Assembly (NCBI GenBank): GCA_002690445.1
Contig: NZER01000422.1
Span: 1-10,760 of the forward strand
Length of the DNA: 10,760 nt
Source of the DNA: Candidatus Pacearchaeota archaeon
GTDB lineage: Archaea; Nanoarchaeota; Nanoarchaeia; Pacearchaeales; GW2011-AR1
Direction of reading: 5' to 3'
In this document: in pieces, positions 346-6,764 of the stretch
Layout of the letters: each line of letters opens with the position of its first letter
Numbering within the stretch: position 1 is the stretch's first letter
Notes under the pieces: model-generated
Databases searched by the model: none
Told to the model about the DNA's origin: nothing
What the model saw: only the letters and a program-made list of their open reading frames with translations
Position numbers and translations under genes: made by a program

Positions 346-530
346 TTTAATTTGCCTCCTTTAGGTTTTTCATATGAATCCTCCTTCATATATTCATCCA
401 AATTTTTGTTCTTTTTTGATTCTTTGTAGGGGATTTTATTATTAAAGGTAAATTTTTTCTCACTCTTATTCCCCAATCCTTTTTTTATTTTAGAATGGTC
501 ACCCCGTAACCATTCGTCTCTAATAGTCAT
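342..530 (-). CDS. 62-residue lysine-rich hypothetical protein
   Basis: The protein starts MTIRDEWLRGDHSK and is strongly basic in the middle (KKNKNLDEYMKED, PKGGKLK). No domain is recognised. The frame stays open upstream to 614, but the chosen start at 530 forms an ATGA overlap with the stop of the DruA-like gene and has AAAAAGGAG about eight bases before it. The longer version would overlap the DruA-like gene by some 90 bases without a better ribosome binding site. Its own stop overlaps the ATG of the next gene in the same way, so it is a middle cistron of a coupled run. Confidence 0.75.
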   Translation of the reverse strand: MTIRDEWLRGDHSKIKKGLGNKSEKKFTFNNKIPYKESKKNKNLDEYMKEDSYEKPKGGKLK

Positions 531-1246
531 TTTGTTAACTCCTTTTTCCAATAACGATGTAAGGGTTTCACAAATATTAATTTGGGGGAGGTACTCCCTA
601 TGACTACTTTCCACATTGAATTATCTCGTTTACCATCTATTTCCATAAATTTTTGAACCACTTGGTCGGTAGAAGTAACATCTTTTTCCTTCTTCCATTC
701 AAATTGACATCCTTTTGTTTTTCCTATTTGGGTCCAACCACTTGATTTATAACAGACCCCAGTATAAGGTGGTTCGACTAAAGTTTCAATTAAAACTAAT
801 TTATCTCCATATTTCTTCTTCCATTCCTTTTGAATTTCTTTACAAAATAAACTAATTATTTTACTTGAATATTTTGTTTTTTCTAATAAACAATATCTCC
901 AATTAGTACAGGTTTTTACAAGATTTCTTAATCGTTGTTCTTTATTCCATCCAATAAAATCGTCACGTGATTTCATTGCCATTACACTTGAACCTACTCC
1001 AATTGCCCCTATATAGTCTCCATTACATTTAATTAACCAGTTTATTTGACGACCCAGGAGATTTGTATGTGGTTTGTAAGTATGATAATTTTTAACTATT
1101 TGGTCAAAATTAAAACGTTGAGTTGGATTTTCTACCAATTCTAAAACAATGCGGACTTCAGGATTTGAACCCAAATCTTCTGATTGGAAATCAGATGTCT
1201 TACCAGTCTTACACCAAGTCCGCATATTTGTTTGATTATTATTCAT
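527..1246 (-). CDS. DruA-like (DUF4338) protein with a tRNA gene in its 5' coding region
   Basis: This 239-residue frame matches my memory of the DUF4338 family, named after DruA of the Druantia antiphage system. Key blocks are NYHTY...LLGRQINWLI (53-72), AIGVGSS (81-87), DFIGW (96-100), NLVKTCTNWRYCLL (108-121), LIETLVEP (152-159), GVCYKSSGW (163-171) and the C-terminal KLIFVKPLH (222-230). DruA's biochemical role is, as far as I know, unsettled. The protein is shorter than bacterial DruA and consists almost only of the core. The ATG at 1246 overlaps the upstream stop as ATGA, which supports translation from there. Residues about 8-33 are then encoded by a complete tRNA-Gly sequence. No ATG lies between the tRNA and the core motifs, so the alternative is a TTG or ATT start just after the tRNA, without a visible ribosome binding site. 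No other Druantia component is present. Family call fairly sure, start uncertain. Confidence 0.75.
   Translation of the reverse strand: MNNNQTNMRTWCKTGKTSDFQSEDLGSNPEVRIVLELVENPTQRFNFDQIVKNYHTYKPHTNLLGRQINWLIKCNGDYIGAIGVGSSVMAMKSRDDFIGWNKEQRLRNLVKTCTNWRYCLLEKTKYSSKIISLFCKEIQKEWKKKYGDKLVLIETLVEPPYTGVCYKSSGWTQIGKTKGCQFEWKKEKDVTSTDQVVQKFMEIDGKRDNSMWKVVIGSTSPKLIFVKPLHRYWKKELTK
1150..1223 (-). tRNA. tRNA-Gly(UCC)
   Basis: On the minus strand the sequence folds as a tRNA: a perfect 7-bp acceptor stem (GCGGACT with AGTCCGC) and discriminator A at 1150; a perfect 5-bp anticodon stem (TCTGA/TCAGA) with loop TTTCCAA, giving anticodon UCC with U33; and a T arm with loop TTCAAAT closed by G-C. T8, A14 and the GG of the D loop are present. 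The D arm is the weak part: with standard numbering one of four pairs is a G-G mismatch and the D loop is long. CCA is not encoded. It lies wholly inside the reading frame of the DruA-like gene, on the same strand. It should read GGA, the main glycine codon of the window. Confidence 0.85.
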
Positions 1247-1398
1247 CTTTTTTGTCTACTTTCCCAAAATTCTATTAATTCTTTTACTCGTTTTTTATCT
1301 TTTGGTTTCTCATTTTCTAAATCTCTTTTTGGAAGAGATTTTTTCATTTTATTCTTTAAATTTTGTCTAATTTTGTATTTTTTTGATGGAATTGCCAT
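1243..1398 (-). CDS. 51-residue basic hypothetical protein
   Basis: The protein (MAIPSKKYKIRQNLKNK... ending FWESRQKR) is very rich in lysine and arginine and probably helical in its second half (KKRVKELIEFWESRQ). Its ATG overlaps the stop of the upstream gene as TGATG, and its own stop overlaps the ATG of the DruA-like gene as ATGA. This coupling on both sides is the main evidence that it is real. The charge suggests nucleic-acid contact, but this is only inference. Confidence 0.65.
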   Translation of the reverse strand: MAIPSKKYKIRQNLKNKMKKSLPKRDLENEKPKDKKRVKELIEFWESRQKR

Positions 1399-1580
1399 CA
1401 TTTAAATCCTTTAATTTTATATTTTTTACAAATTTTTTTATTTAACAAAATTCTTGTTGATTTTCCTATATTTTTAGAGAAAAACTCTTGGTCTTCAATA
1501 TATTTATCTGTATTTTTACTATAATCATACTTTTCAAGTCGTATTATAGTTTTTAGCAATTTTTGATATTTTTTATCCAT
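1398..1580 (-). CDS. 60-residue basic hypothetical protein, first gene of the DruA-like run
   Basis: The protein starts MDKKYQKLLKTIIRLEKYDYSKN and ends in a lysine-rich tail (NKKICKKYKIKGFK). It has no recognised domain. GGAG at 1589-1592 sits about eight bases before the ATG. It follows a noncoding block with a TATA-like element, and its stop overlaps the next start as TGATG, so it heads the coupled cistrons that include the DruA-like gene. Confidence 0.65.
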   Translation of the reverse strand: MDKKYQKLLKTIIRLEKYDYSKNTDKYIEDQEFFSKNIGKSTRILLNKKICKKYKIKGFK

Positions 1581-1738: not shown

Positions 1739-3319
1739 TCATATTTCTTCTTTCATTATATTTTTTAATCTTATTTCCATATTACTTATTATTCTACTCC
1801 AAATTTCTCTACAATTCATATAATCTTGTTCATTTGCTTCAAAACTTTCATCTTTCTCACACAAACATCTTAATTTAACTAATCCATCAATCAAACAAAA
1901 TAAATGATGTTTATATCTTGCTAAATAGATACTTCTTATATCAACAAAAGGATTTTCTTCCATATCTTCTCCAAGTTTAAATAATCCTTCATCAAATATA
2001 GAATTTACTTCTTCTTTATCAAATTTAGATTTAAAATTATTCATATAATCATATATTGAAATAAATAAATCCCTATCTAAATTTAAAGTAGTTTTTTCTA
2101 ATTCTGTTTCATCTTTTTCAGCTACAAAATTAAAATGTTTTCTGTTTTGATAAAATACAATTAAACGGGATAAAAAACTTTTATCTATTTTATTAGTTAA
2201 ACGAGTCATATCACTTGTTCCATAAACTGGATTAGAAGCTGTTATTAATTTAGCAGTCATTTTTCCTTTAAAACTATAATTTCCACTACCAAAATTTCTT
2301 ATTTTATGTTCAAGAAGAGGATTTAAAGCTGCAAGTTGAGGTTCTCTTTCTTCAACAGGAATTCTAACTAAAATTCTTAAAAATTCGTCTACACAACAAA
2401 TTCTATTACTTTTAATTAAATCTCCTGTTTGAATACTTGTAGTGGACCTAAAACTTGGAATAAGAGATTTCATAGTACTACAACTTCCATCTGTTATTTC
2501 ATTATTTTCATCAAATTTCCAATGTAAACATTCCATAACTTTACTTTTTCCACTTCCTTGAGGACCAATAATAAGTAAATGCATTGGATAAGGACTACTA
2601 TCATATTTTGTTGAAAATAAAAAACTTATAATTAATCTTTCAAAATATTTAGGATGTGGAAAATAAGTTCCATCTGGACCACTAAAAATATAACTTAATA
2701 ATTCTTCTTCATTAAATTTTGGAAGTATTTTAAATAAATCTTTTGTATTTGTAAATTTCATAACTCTCTCCTTTGCATTGTTTACAAATATAATAGGAAG
2801 TTGAAGATTTATTCTGGTATAATTTCCAATATCTGCCATATCCCCAATTTCTATTTCCATACCCTCAATAGTATATTCAATTAAATCAAGTGGTTCTATA
2901 GAAAAAAGTAAATATTCTCTTTCTTCACTAATCATTTTATAAATATAAAAATCATAATCAAAGGTTGTAAGGATTTTATGTCTTCTATCTATTTTTTCAT
3001 TAAAGAATTTTAAAGATTTAATAATTACTTCATCTTCACCACTTCCAATTTTTTGTTCTATTAATTTTATTAAAGAAATTTTATTTAGATATTCATTTAC
3101 TTTATTTGTAACTTTTCCCCTTATAGTTTTATTTTTATTAATAACAAAGAGAATTCTATCTTTTTCTTCAAATTCCTTTTGAACTAATTGTTTAATATCC
3201 CTAAATGGATAAGGGTCATTTAATTTTACTATAGATGGTTGAAAGTCTTGAGCAGATATATTTTCAGTTGCTATTAATTGTAATTTGGTTATTAATGCCT
3301 CTTTTTCTAATTTTTCCAT
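1739..3319 (-). CDS. divergent MCM-like replicative helicase (AAA+ ATPase)
   Basis: This 526-residue protein carries an MCM-type AAA+ core: Walker A GPQGSGKS (252-259), Walker B RICCVDEF (306-313, compare MCM CCIDEF), sensor 1 ITASNPVYG (359-367) and the arginine-finger region FLSRLIVFY (382-390, compare LSRFDL). It should unwind DNA at the element's origin, probably as a hexameric ring. It differs from cellular MCM: the P-loop is a classical GSGKS rather than the usual AKS form, and the first 262 residues contain no cysteine, so the N-terminal zinc finger is absent. The N-terminal 200 residues are unassigned. The ATG overlaps the HNH gene stop as TAATG and GGGAG precedes it. Replication origin signals may lie just beyond its 3' end. 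Confidence 0.87.
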   Translation of the reverse strand: MEKLEKEALITKLQLIATENISAQDFQPSIVKLNDPYPFRDIKQLVQKEFEEKDRILFVINKNKTIRGKVTNKVNEYLNKISLIKLIEQKIGSGEDEVIIKSLKFFNEKIDRRHKILTTFDYDFYIYKMISEEREYLLFSIEPLDLIEYTIEGMEIEIGDMADIGNYTRINLQLPIIFVNNAKERVMKFTNTKDLFKILPKFNEEELLSYIFSGPDGTYFPHPKYFERLIISFLFSTKYDSSPYPMHLLIIGPQGSGKSKVMECLHWKFDENNEITDGSCSTMKSLIPSFRSTTSIQTGDLIKSNRICCVDEFLRILVRIPVEEREPQLAALNPLLEHKIRNFGSGNYSFKGKMTAKLITASNPVYGTSDMTRLTNKIDKSFLSRLIVFYQNRKHFNFVAEKDETELEKTTLNLDRDLFISIYDYMNNFKSKFDKEEVNSIFDEGLFKLGEDMEENPFVDIRSIYLARYKHHLFCLIDGLVKLRCLCEKDESFEANEQDYMNCREIWSRIISNMEIRLKNIMKEEI

Positions 3320-3780
3320 TATTTAATTCTCCCAAATTTATGTTTATCTTTTGAATGAACTATTTTATGACAATCTTCACAAAGAGTTATACAATTTTCT
3401 TTATCAAATTGTAAACTTCTATTTTGAGTTACATAAATTATATGATGAACTTCTAATTGTTTAGTTAAATAATAATCTTCATTTCTATTAAATTCACAAT
3501 GTTGACATTTATAATTATCTCTTCGAAGAATTTCTTGTTTAAAATTCATCCATCTTTGTTGAAAAGAAATTCTTGAATTTGAACTAAACATTTTTTCAAT
3601 AGAAATATGAGATTCATCTTTAAAAATATTATGAATTAAATTCCACCCTTGTCCACATTTAAAATACATCTCACATTTACTATTTTTACAAACCATTCCT
3701 TCATTTCTTTTTTGTAATTTATTTTTACATAAAGGACATTTAGATTTTTTTTCTAAAATTTGTTTTTTAAATTCATCCAT
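3319..3780 (-). CDS. HNH endonuclease with N-terminal zinc ribbon
   Basis: The 153-residue protein has a zinc-ribbon-like start (C15xxC18, C31, C36, C42) and a C-terminal HNH domain: C92xxC95, EVHH (110-113), N129, C134xxC137H138 and H142. These are the metal-binding and catalytic positions of HNH nucleases, so it should cut or nick DNA. It stands between a tiny zinc-ribbon gene and the MCM-like helicase, overlapping the latter by one base. That context suggests a role in replication initiation, resolution or host DNA attack rather than a stray homing enzyme, though a homing role cannot be excluded. The frame and all key residues are intact. Confidence 0.88.
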   Translation of the reverse strand: MDEFKKQILEKKSKCPLCKNKLQKRNEGMVCKNSKCEMYFKCGQGWNLIHNIFKDESHISIEKMFSSNSRISFQQRWMNFKQEILRRDNYKCQHCEFNRNEDYYLTKQLEVHHIIYVTQNRSLQFDKENCITLCEDCHKIVHSKDKHKFGRIK

Positions 3781-3784
3781 TATT

Positions 3785-3913
3785 TTATACCCATCCCCTC
3801 TTTTTATGATAACAGTTTAAACAAAGATATTTTTTATTTTTGGTTTGAATTAAACTATCAACCCATTTTTTACACTTTGAACAAACTCCCCCATTTATAC
3901 TTGGAAAACTCAT
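3785..3913 (-). CDS. 42-residue zinc-ribbon protein
   Basis: A very short gene encodes MSFPSINGGVCSKCKKW... with CxxC near residue 11 and a second CxxC (CLNC) near residue 31, a typical four-cysteine zinc ribbon followed by a basic tail (YHKKRGW). GAGG lies before the ATG, inside the end of the upstream gene, and only four bases separate the two genes. The HNH gene starts a few bases after its stop. It is probably a small DNA-binding or partner protein of the replication unit. Confidence 0.75.
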   Translation of the reverse strand: MSFPSINGGVCSKCKKWVDSLIQTKNKKYLCLNCYHKKRGWV

Positions 3914-3917
3914 TTAT

Positions 3918-4154
3918 TTATTCCTCTTTTTTTTCACGTTCTTCAATCATCTCTTCAGTTAAATGTGTTGGTTCTGGTTTTAAATTTTCCAAACTTTTTT
4001 TATCTTCTACTATTTTTTTAATCCTTTCCAAAGCCGCAGTTCTCATAAAATTACTAATATTTCTATTTTCACCCTTTGCGAATTTCATTATTAGTTTTTT
4101 TTCTTCAGGTTTAACTACCACTTGAATAAATTCGTCTAATTTTTCTTCTGTCAT
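3918..4154 (-). CDS. ribbon-helix-helix type regulator
   Basis: This 78-residue protein has the layout of RHH regulators: a short beta strand (FIQVVVKPEE, residues 9-18), helix one (KKLIMKFAKG), an NISNFMRTAALERI helix two, then a highly acidic tail (residues about 50-78). RHH proteins bind operators as dimers. The start has a strong GGAGGT six to seven bases upstream and its own TATA box. As the first gene of the unit with the HNH and helicase genes it is likely an autoregulator of replication functions. A plasmid copy-control or antitoxin-like role is an alternative; no toxin partner is seen. Confidence 0.75.
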   Translation of the reverse strand: MTEEKLDEFIQVVVKPEEKKLIMKFAKGENRNISNFMRTAALERIKKIVEDKKSLENLKPEPTHLTEEMIEEREKKEE

Positions 4155-4709: not shown

Positions 4710-6764
4710 ATGAGAGAAAAAATTGAGAATATATTTGTTGGAGTAATTGCAATATTTATGTTATTATCTACTGTATCAAGTGCATTAGCGATTGATGAAA
4801 CTAATAACTTAAATGCATACCCAGACCAATTTATAACAAATGGGATTTTTACGGGGGCAGTAGTTGTAGGAGATAATGCATTAGCATCAGATACAGTTGG
4901 TCAGGCTACGATACTTGCAAATTTACAAACAAAGGCAGTAAGTATAGAAACAACAACAGAAACAAATGAAATTGAAGTGATAGGGGGAACTAAAGAAATT
5001 AAATTGGGTGAAAAAGTAAATACGGAATTTGATTCAAATTTAGATGATTCCGATTTAGACCAACTTCAAGATAAACAAATAAAATTTAATAATGAGGATT
5101 ATGATGTCCATGATGAATTAATCTTAGGTGAAATAAGTTTAGAAACAAGTTTAACATCTGACATTGATTATGAGGATAGTGTGGCATTAGAAGCAGAAAA
5201 AAAGTCTATAAAATATAAATATATTTTTGATGACAGTATAAATCTAAATGATGTTGATAGTGATACACCTCTAACTATTGATTTTCTTGGAAGAGAATTA
5301 AAAATTACTTCTGTTGATAATGAAGAAATGACAATTAACTTCGGGAGTAAATATGTTTTAGAGGAAGAGGATGAATTGGATATTGATGGTAAGACTCTAA
5401 AAGTGACTCAAGTTGGAGATACCTCCATTGTAATTAATGTCGATGGTATAACCGAAATTGTAGGTAACGGAGAGTCCGAAACTATTAATGGAGTTGAAAT
5501 TGAAGTAAATGATATTGTTTATGATGGAGATAGTGATACAAAAGACATTGTTTCTTTATACGCAGGAAATGATGTAAAAGACACAATTAATGATGGGGAT
5601 GACTATTTTAATAATGAAGAATGGACTTGGGATTTTTCAACAATAGATGACACAGATGCAAAACATTCTTTTGGAATTGAATTGAATGAAAATTATAACG
5701 ATGATAATGACGAGGATTTGGTTAAAGATACAGGTTGTTATGATTTGCCCGATAAGTTCCTAAGTATATGTTTAACTGGTTTAAAGAATGATGAGTATTC
5801 TACTTTTGAAATAGAATATGATGATAATTACGAATTTGATGACGTGGATGGTTACGCAGATGGAGATGTAAAAGCTTTTGTATTTAAAAGTGACAATGAA
5901 GATGGATTTACTATTAAAGAAGAAAAAACAAACGAACTTGTCTTTTATGTAAATGGAACAAATGGCATTGATGTATTTTATAAAGACGACGAAGGTGATT
6001 TGTATTTAGCAAATGATTATACCATTTCAAATACAACAAATTCAAGTTTTGCAAAAATAACTTACGAAGATAATGAAATAGATATGGATTTAACACTAAA
6101 AGATTTATCTTTGGGTAATCCAGTAAATATAACAATAGATGCAGGAAATAATAAAAATTTGGAAATCATTTTGGGGAAAGATACGAGTGAATTTAAGTAT
6201 CTTGGAACTACTGTGGAAGCTGAAGATAATGAATTGATTTATGGTGGAACTGAAATTGGAGAGAAAGATAATGATTTAATGACCAAATATGGAATTATAA
6301 TTAAAGACCCAGATTCTAATGGTGATGATGGGAAGGTAATTATGGAAATTCCAAGTGAAGAGATTGAAGCAGTTGTTAAAATTGGAGGAACAACCACAGT
6401 TGAAACAACCGAATCAACTATAAGTGTAAGTAAGGTTAATCCAATACCTTCAAGTGCAATCGCACTTTCTTCAGAAATTACAAATCCAACAGCACAGAAT
6501 TTAATAGTGATTGGAGGACCAGCGGTTAATCCATTAGCAAGCACTGTATTTGGGATGGCAACATCAGATTTTACACCTAATGAAGCAATGATTAAAGTAA
6601 TTAATAATGGGGATTTTATGGCTATTTTAATTGCAGGATATGGTGCAGTTGATACAAGAAATGCTGCTTTGGCAGTAGCGAAGGGAGAATTAAATGGAAT
6701 AAATAAAGCAGAAGCAAAGGTTATTTCAACAACCCAAGCTATTGGAGCATATGTTGTGGAGTAA
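4710..6764 (+). CDS. S-layer family surface protein
   Basis: This 684-residue secreted protein has a signal peptide (1-27, ending SSALA). Next is an N-terminal S-layer domain (about 37-75: YPDQFITNGIFTGAVVVGD...ATILANLQ). The middle is beta-rich and very acidic, and the C-terminal S-layer domain (about 575-684) contains LIVIGGPAVNPLAS and ILIAGYGAVDTRNAA. This matches the architecture of methanogen and DPANN S-layer proteins, which form the outer cell lattice. C343 and C354 may form a disulfide, and NNTT/NGT/NIT-type sequons allow N-glycosylation. Length is normal to slightly short and the frame intact. It is transcribed alone from the divergent region and ends in a hairpin terminator. On an element it could replace or modify the host S-layer, block superinfection, or coat a particle. 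A chromosomal host gene beside an insertion is the alternative. Confidence 0.85.
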   Translation: MREKIENIFVGVIAIFMLLSTVSSALAIDETNNLNAYPDQFITNGIFTGAVVVGDNALASDTVGQATILANLQTKAVSIETTTETNEIEVIGGTKEIKLGEKVNTEFDSNLDDSDLDQLQDKQIKFNNEDYDVHDELILGEISLETSLTSDIDYEDSVALEAEKKSIKYKYIFDDSINLNDVDSDTPLTIDFLGRELKITSVDNEEMTINFGSKYVLEEEDELDIDGKTLKVTQVGDTSIVINVDGITEIVGNGESETINGVEIEVNDIVYDGDSDTKDIVSLYAGNDVKDTINDGDDYFNNEEWTWDFSTIDDTDAKHSFGIELNENYNDDNDEDLVKDTGCYDLPDKFLSICLTGLKNDEYSTFEIEYDDNYEFDDVDGYADGDVKAFVFKSDNEDGFTIKEEKTNELVFYVNGTNGIDVFYKDDEGDLYLANDYTISNTTNSSFAKITYEDNEIDMDLTLKDLSLGNPVNITIDAGNNKNLEIILGKDTSEFKYLGTTVEAEDNELIYGGTEIGEKDNDLMTKYGIIIKDPDSNGDDGKVIMEIPSEEIEAVVKIGGTTTVETTESTISVSKVNPIPSSAIALSSEITNPTAQNLIVIGGPAVNPLASTVFGMATSDFTPNEAMIKVINNGDFMAILIAGYGAVDTRNAALAVAKGELNGINKAEAKVISTTQAIGAYVVE

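Follow-up and report, generated by a model that had tools for sequence, protein, structure and literature searches.

In-frame nesting of a glycine tRNA at the start of a DruA-like gene of a Pacearchaeota contig, with counterparts in viral Mom-type genes

The Mom protein of phage Mu (PF25680) is responsible for a DNA adenine modification and adopts the GNAT fold. Its product is named in the title of Swinton 1983, as it appears in PMC3874153, as a glycinamide at position 6 of a purine deoxynucleoside, and a passage of PMC10286901 gives it as N6-(1-acetamido)-adenine. DruA, a component of Druantia type I, belongs to another family, DUF4338 (PF14236). To our knowledge, there is no settled answer as to the donor of the group added by Mom, and we know of no glycyl-tRNA-dependent DNA-modifying enzyme. 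Here we analyze a stretch of 10,760 nucleotides (nt) from a Candidatus Pacearchaeota archaeon (contig NZER01000422.1; the whole stretch is hereafter called the window), in which an open reading frame (ORF) of the DruA family carries, on the same strand and in frame within its 5' end, a complete glycine transfer RNA (tRNA-Gly). We confirm this nesting, which was described in an earlier note, and show that many viral Mom-type genes share it and that both the RNA structure and the reading frame are under selection. By a modest measure, we favor the generalization that Mom/DruA enzymes are glycyl-tRNA-dependent DNA modifiers, many viral members of which dual-code their donor tRNA in frame, and that DruA, by extension, marks self DNA. 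No report joining Mom or DruA with glycyl- or other aminoacyl-tRNA was found in our searches of the open-access literature.

The only tRNA predicted in the window by ARAGORN is a tRNA-Gly with the anticodon UCC on the minus strand (1149-1224), and Rfam family RF00005 matches 1150-1223(-) end to end (54.1 bits, E-value (E) 1.2e-9; gathering score 29). A covariance model built from 43 nested RNAs (R1; 39 RNAs of the Mom clade, those of viral loci L001, L003 and L005, and the window's own) scores this RNA at 48.4 bits, with the window sequence being among those used to build the model. The predicted fold (z -2.4) includes the acceptor, anticodon and T hairpins. By ARAGORN, Rfam and the alignment of nested RNAs, the RNA is a cloverleaf with a glycine anticodon (C35, C36). 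The perfect acceptor and anticodon stems claimed in the earlier note were recovered (7/7 and 5/5 pairs), but the claim does not extend to the other stems: by eye, a G-G mismatch interrupts the D stem, and the outer pairs of the T stem (U-A, U-G, G-U) are weak. An alternative parse, moved by one base and bulged in the T stem, has the same score (18.0 for both) and matches the ARAGORN boundaries. The ORF is open from its ATG at 1246, in frame through the whole tRNA, so that tRNA bases 1-73 correspond to residues 8-33, and this ATG is coupled (ATGA) to the upstream ORF; both points had been correctly described. The note was also right that no ATG lies between the tRNA and the conserved core, where a TTG is present at codon 37. 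One database gene call for the window's own protein (P0001) begins at a TTG within the tRNA. The codon-8 position, an ATG in the window (Table 1), is often M, L or I in relatives. Chance overlap of the tRNA and the ORF was rejected given that the frame and the RNA are both kept in dozens of relatives. A sigma-70 promoter near the DruA-like gene was rejected as well (8 matches versus 6.3 in shuffled sequences).

At the protein level, a search yielded 65 homologues, including the window's own protein, and their N-termini often match an in-frame translation of the tRNA ([L/M]-R-x-W-C-x-x-x-N-T...F-Q...G-S-N-P-x-x-R-I). The complete tRNA-encoded peptide was parsed in 33 of the 66 aligned rows. The 33 unparsed rows were left out of the covariation test, and the partial or differently phased tRNA peptides seen by eye in P0041, P0046, P0048, P0052 and P0054-P0060 were not counted. 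In the parsed rows, the residue pairs that cover acceptor bases 5-7 and 67-69 are Thr-Val (12 rows), Gln-Cys (9), Asp-Ser (3), Glu-Ser (2) and, once each, Ser-Leu, Val-Ile, Ala-Val, Ala-Ala, Cys-His, Val-Thr and Pro-Gly; all 33 are able to base-pair, compared with a mean of 9.3 and a maximum of 18 in 5000 shuffles, none of which reached 33. Likewise, the T-stem residue pairs (Gly-Pro 25, Cys-Gln 4, Arg-Arg 3, Cys-Arg 1) can base-pair in 33 of 33 rows (shuffle mean 20.5, maximum 28; 0/5000). Although this shuffle test takes no account of kinship between the rows, residue pairs that make no sense as amino acids and yet all form base pairs indicate that the RNA fold is under selection.

The codon over tRNA bases 8-10 encodes Trp in 29, Tyr in two and Arg in two of the parsed rows. 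A usual tRNA (U8-A9-purine), read in the same phase, would present TAG or TAA at these bases, so the frame appears to be kept open. As a stop codon here would shorten the predicted protein, this position is subject to ascertainment, and a frame test at the DNA level (see below) was therefore used as backing. Several homologues begin a few codons upstream of the tRNA (for example, MKQKQNN-L-R and MKTSQLN-L-R), and some predicted ones begin where the D-arm ATG would be; in L001, such an ATG is present in the DNA. In P0061, a stretch resembling a zinc ribbon (by eye) precedes the tRNA peptide, placing the tRNA deeper in the ORF.

Scanning IMG/VR with the family alignments revealed tRNA-like sequences at the ORF start in L001, L003 and L005, which are DruA-like, and in the Mom-like loci L044-L047, L049-L051, L053-L056 and L059. 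The IMG/VR scan with Mom-like proteins produced 170 relatives, of which 80 were kept (L068-L147), several of these sharing contigs with the earlier loci. With R1, 57 of the 80 kept Mom-family loci show one sense-strand match, placed at the start of the ORF, and the 258,826 bases of these loci contain no further match at E up to 1. An independent cloverleaf scorer reached at least 16.5 at 53 of 79 gene starts, whereas none of 395 dinucleotide shuffles and none of 336 other places did so; L088, in which the match begins past the tRNA region, was left out of these counts. In the alignment of 43 RNAs, 99.0% of the acceptor and 99.5% of the T-stem positions are paired, 18 of the 21 pairs show two-sided changes, and the covariation score is 0.358 versus 0.122 (0/500 shuffles as high; best slid register 0.198). 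This alignment (A4), which includes the 39 RNAs of the Mom clade, lacks L108, which was misparsed; L146 and L128 were unparsed. R1 finds all three.

Translation through the nested tRNA is likely, given that the frame of the enzyme is open in each of the 42 distinct RNAs found among the 57 Mom loci, whereas the other two frames are open in 4 and 1 of the 42. An in-frame ATG, GTG or TTG occurs within 60 nt upstream in 40 of the 42. All 39 Mom-clade RNAs of A4 span 76 nt between base 1 and the CCA position, and their alignment shows no differences in length; as this length is constant despite anticodon loops of 5, 6, 7 or 8 nt, insertions and deletions seem to be avoided, as in coding sequence. 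The tRNA has the same codon phase across the parsed Mom-clade rows.

These results bear on the possibility, raised in the earlier note, that the tRNA marks an attachment site or is a remnant of integration beside a host tRNA gene, in the manner of SSV. Many elements do integrate at tRNA genes. However, the tRNA is complete rather than a 3' part, the strict frame and the covariation hold over diverse contigs, with the RNA coevolving with the ORF, and all 43 RNAs are of the glycine type and reside at the start of one gene family. Furthermore, no recombinase was detected among the 13 of the 31 listed window ORFs that were scanned, and the window, one of the places where the note proposed to seek a second copy of the tRNA 3' part, contains no repeat of the T-arm motif with 1 mismatch or fewer. 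We consider this explanation extremely unlikely.

The nested RNAs are of the glycine type. All 43 aligned RNAs have C35-C36, the anticodon triplet being UCC in 41, ACC in L001 and CCC in L005, and 41 of the 43 begin with GCG. Together with G1-C72, C2-G71 and N73, these are glycine identity elements, which make the nested RNA a putative target of charging with glycine. In a set of 42 RNAs (the 39 of the Mom clade plus L001, L003 and L005, a set different from that of the frame test), position 73 is occupied by U in 31 and by A in 11, and an encoded CCA directly follows N73 in 37. Archaeal tRNA genes often do not encode the CCA, and neither does that of the window. According to Table 1 of PMC6097841, U73 is found in 231,855 of 232,109 bacterial tRNA-Gly and 56,956 of 56,971 tRNA-Cys, in a minority of tRNA-Thr (28,854/160,271) and tRNA-Arg (10,151/233,054), and rarely elsewhere.

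Other features depart from the usual tRNA. An extra base is present in the 3' strand of the T stem in all 39 Mom-clade RNAs of A4 (for example, CCGACC versus GGCGG) and, in the best parse, in L001 and L003; the anticodon loop has 5, 6 or 8 nt in 22 of the 43 RNAs; and, by eye, G19 is replaced in many of them. The bulged T stems and the loops of 5 to 8 nt suggest that most nested RNAs do not serve the ribosome. EF-Tu reads the T-stem pairs; in the FemXAB tRNA-Gly species of Staphylococcus aureus, these pairs are weakened and G18G19 is lost (PMC4052509).

Two further explanations can be judged against these features. Viruses often carry tRNAs, and an ordinary tRNA that supplies codons for viral translation could overlap the next gene by chance; the window RNA, with its Rfam score of 54.1 bits and its UCC, U33 and G18G19, would fit that description. 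Exclusive glycine type (43/43), location at the start of a single gene family in 57 of 80 loci, the common codon phase, the extra T-stem base in 39 of 39 and the aberrant loops in 22 of 43 would not, making this origin very unlikely. In the second explanation, the mRNA uses the tRNA-like fold as a cis-acting control element, which, when bound by the enzyme (presumed to bind host Gly-tRNA as its substrate) or by glycyl-tRNA synthetase, represses translation, and no free tRNA is made. A model for such an operator is the threonyl-tRNA synthetase of E. coli, which represses its own mRNA through a bound element. An operator would account for the overlap with the start region and for the odd loops, and the covariation and position data fit it equally, but it has no need of a CCA exactly after N73 (37/42) or of a host-type N73, and it need not sit within the ORF over 76 nt. 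We therefore regard it as unlikely.

The window ORF is a member of PF14236 (75.2 bits, E 6.6e-21; Pfam gathering cut-off 27 bits) and matches the PADLOC DruA model with E 2.8e-8. In the AlphaFold model of the protein, the mean predicted local distance difference test (pLDDT) value is 85, with residues 1-26 below 50, and its top structural match in the PDB is Mu Mom (8bv8; GNAT fold). The predicted fold is thus nearest to Mom, and the serine corresponding to Mu Mom Ser124 is kept (Table 1); the PDB title of 8bv8 designates Mu Mom S124A as an inactive mutant. Four homologues (P0051, P0053, P0058 and P0064) are annotated with both PF25680 and PF14236 in precomputed annotation, and for L005, the PF25680 score is 27.4 versus 27.1. 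We conclude that the window protein is homologous to Mom, a connection that escaped the earlier note, as did the glycine specificity and the breadth of the arrangement. FemX and LFT were not among the 50 structural matches listed, which leaves room for kinship with them. A P-T/I-S-x-L/H motif near the N-terminus is shared by 113 of the 120 Mom relatives listed; no statistic was built on it. Among the three window proteins scanned with PADLOC, none matched other Druantia genes (the window spans 10.8 kb), no Druantia domains were detected in the 13 of 31 listed ORFs scanned with Pfam and PHROGs, and matches to PF02387 and PF21359 in window proteins fell under the Pfam cut-off.

The GNAT fold, together with the glycine identity and the shared strand and frame of the RNA, would also suit a toxin that acts on aminoacyl-tRNA, as the GNAT toxins TacT and AtaT do, with the tRNA-Gly-like RNA as a co-transcribed decoy antitoxin. 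The closest structural and profile relatives of the enzyme, however, are Mom DNA-modification proteins, and the RNA is absent from 14 of 62 distinct Mom cores (no search for other antitoxins was made); we give this explanation very little credence.

Table 1. Features of the nested tRNA-Gly and its host ORF in the window
Feature	Positions	Strand	Remarks	Source
tRNA-Gly(UCC)-like RNA	1150..1223	-	acceptor GCGGACT/AGTCCGC, A73, CCA not encoded	ARAGORN, Rfam
Anticodon UCC	1186..1188	-	C35-C36 invariant in 43/43 aligned tRNA-likes	
DruA-like / Mom-like GNAT ORF, 239 amino acids (aa)	527..1246	-	residues 8-33 tRNA-encoded	
Upstream 52-aa ORF	1243..1401	-	4-base overlap with the ATG of the DruA-like ORF (ATGA)	
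Second in-frame ATG, codon 8	1223..1225	-	its G is tRNA base 1	
Ser128 codon	863..865	-	aligns with Mu Mom Ser124	

Some lineages without the RNA retain a related peptide. The residues LF occur at the position of the tRNA peptide in the tRNA-less L087, L095, L111, L123, L127, L132, L134 and L147, and the pattern x-S-P-x-[QE]-[LF] is found in the same lineages except L127, and additionally in L117. Across the 55 proteins (out of 62 Mom proteins) in the protein alignment, conservation is 90% or higher at residues F16, P25 and S27 of L068, and in the Mom-clade structural model, the tRNA-encoded residues are partly ordered (pLDDT 71 for residues 11-20 and 83 for 21-30). We read the peptide in the tRNA-less lineages as a remnant of the tRNA-encoded one; the reverse order, in which the tRNA arose over an older peptide, is possible. 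In the tree of 62 distinct Mom cores, 48 with the RNA and 14 without, a minimum of 3 label changes is required by the starred branches and 9 by the best tree, which tentatively points to repeated loss. The earlier note had named homologous loci with their own ATG and no tRNA as evidence that would count against its reading. Such relatives do exist (P0035 and P0037, judging by N-termini; L002, L004 and L006), but they adjoin lineages that keep the arrangement.

A separate observation concerns the anticodon arm, the residues of which are often xxLF; the tRNA-less L147 (1456-2025) has QLDLF and L134 (1462-2022) has ELGLF. We take these peptides to resemble the bacterial sliding-clamp binding motif; besides its part in the RNA, the anticodon arm may code for a clamp-binding peptide.

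We consider it probable that Gly-tRNA is the source of the glycine used by the enzyme and that the gene supplies a dedicated tRNA for this purpose. The 5' end of the gene would then be read twice, as RNA to give that glycine tRNA and as mRNA to encode residues 1 to ~33 of a Mom-type GNAT. From some transcripts, the tRNA would be freed by host RNase P and by maturation of the 3' end; the CCA, encoded in most viral relatives, would be added post-transcriptionally to the window's tRNA; and the host glycyl-tRNA synthetase would charge it. EF-Tu/EF-1A and the ribosome would probably be poor users of the nested tRNA because its T stem is abnormal, as are the D loop and the anticodon loop in many relatives. 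The enzyme, made from unprocessed transcripts, would move the glycyl group from the nested tRNA onto a DNA base, with adenine N6, as for Mu Mom, being the most likely acceptor; that adenine is the base modified by the window's own enzyme we put at roughly even chances. An intramolecular N-to-C6 rearrangement after acylation would lead to the known Mom product. As adenine plus a glycyl group equals the composition of this product (+57.02 Da), transfer followed by rearrangement would be chemically simple. A glycine-type tRNA that is unfit for the ribosome and nested in the gene of the enzyme that would use it is what would be expected if Gly-tRNA is the donor.

A single RNA cannot be both excised and translated from its start, and therefore the two products would come from different transcripts, making a switch possible. 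That each transcript would yield either tRNA or protein, so that tRNA maturation and protein synthesis would exclude each other as suggested in the earlier note, is plausible from the action of RNase P and 3' maturation. Taken as a whole, the interpretation in that note is partly supported: the in-frame nesting, with likely translation through it, is borne out, and the attachment site is not supported. We infer this competition, as well as the charging, the use of the tRNA by the enzyme and the DNA acceptor.

A number of observations weigh against such a donor role. The clade of the window is represented here by one DNA locus, and the 33-row test is a protein-level one in which half of the rows (33/66) are unparsed; in addition, PF25680 is absent among the families matched by the window's protein at E up to 1. 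The nested tRNAs are related to one another, so the counts represent non-independent events. In A4, pairing reaches only 58.1% in the D helix and 74.0% in the anticodon helix; a one-base slide of the anticodon arm in rows with 6- or 8-nt loops explains part of this. Two of the 42 distinct RNAs have no start codon in the 60 nt upstream, and in 28 of the 42, a possible ATG, GTG or TTG lies between the tRNA and the core, so that read-through of the tRNA is not obligatory there. A73 (11/42) is rare in bacterial tRNA-Gly; it is consistent with archaeal tRNA-Gly. The base preceding the triplet (U33) is T in 39 of the 43 RNAs, and the window RNA retains the D-loop GG, U33 and a 7-nt anticodon loop, with an ambiguous T-stem bulge; the case for its non-ribosomal nature accordingly rests on its relatives. 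The nested RNA is missing from 14 of the 62 distinct Mom cores, and neither Mu Mom nor the six Mom-like genes of named phages (RaK2, two Vibrio, one Geobacillus and two Paenibacillus phages) contains a nested tRNA; hence, the tRNA is dispensable for some Moms. Finally, the relevant passage of PMC7824862 names the Mom donor as an acylated coenzyme A (CoA) such as glycyl-CoA.

Wider searches delimit the distribution of the arrangement. For the DruA-like and the MCM-like gene of the window, single-sequence queries of IMG/VR returned no close relatives, and a scan of genome contigs recovered one distant relative, in a Bacilli metagenome-assembled genome (L029), without a tRNA. Nested tRNAs are also absent from eight Mom-, acetyltransferase- or DUF4338-like genes of named phages and from the Bradyrhizobium plasmid relative. 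The sole match in a scan of viral contigs for the tRNA D-arm pattern was judged to be due to chance, as its translated frame is that of a glycosyltransferase-like gene. R1, which is no general tRNA-Gly finder, gave one match on each of 7 contigs with a nested tRNA, and on 23 tRNA-less contigs (records that are possibly fragments), it detected a separate tRNA-Gly-like RNA only in that of L007 (3 matches). There, a free-standing tRNA-Gly(UCC) with U73 (3845-3921) is located a few bases ahead of another ORF and ~2 kb upstream of the DruA-like gene, which has no nested tRNA; it is possibly a trans version of the tRNA/enzyme pairing.

Elsewhere in the window, a long imperfect hairpin (1613-1699; by eye), with arms GTTTGGGGGG and CCCCCCAAAC and an AT-rich center, sits between the MCM-like gene and small ORFs and is a candidate replication origin. 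Within it, mir-like Rfam matches are under the gathering scores, and a repeat search at default settings lists no inverted repeat. An HNH nuclease (3319-3780(-)), near the Mom-like ORF and with a weak PADLOC match to type IV restriction (E 6.1e-6), could be a partner that cuts according to modification state. An S-layer outer-domain-like protein (4710-6764(+); PF05124, E 2.2e-7), along with the MCM-like/AAA protein of the element, suggests an archaeal host or virus.

The presence of a glycine tRNA within Mom-type genes suggests that Mom draws its group from Gly-tRNA. If this is true, the adaptor molecules of translation would be linked to DNA modification and anti-restriction, and DruA would be offered a function in Druantia, that of a base modifier marking self DNA. 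The locus would also be a rare case of same-strand overlap, in which a structured RNA and a protein are specified by the same bases over 76 nt and both constraints can be measured.

Each of the closest known systems differs from the window gene. Mu Mom has no nested tRNA, and the window protein scores in PF14236 instead of the Mom family. DruA of Druantia belongs to the same family as the window ORF, but the PADLOC model has 407 positions, whereas the window protein has 239 aa and a tRNA-encoded N-terminus. Transfer-messenger RNA (tmRNA) likewise unites tRNA-like and mRNA parts in one transcript; it is, however, a single molecule that acts on stalled ribosomes and has a separate short tag ORF, whereas here the tRNA itself encodes the N-terminus of the enzyme. 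SSV-type integrase genes with attP, the viral attachment site, also contain tRNA-derived sequence within a viral ORF, but only the 3' part of a tRNA, in an integrase gene and as a recombination site; in the window, the ORF encodes a GNAT and the tRNA is complete. The Staphylococcus FemXAB tRNA-Gly (PMC4052509) has features that weaken EF-Tu binding and serves an aminoacyl-tRNA-dependent transferase; there, a chromosomal tRNA gene supplies a cell-wall enzyme, whereas here the tRNA is nested in the gene of its putative user, and the putative acceptor is DNA.
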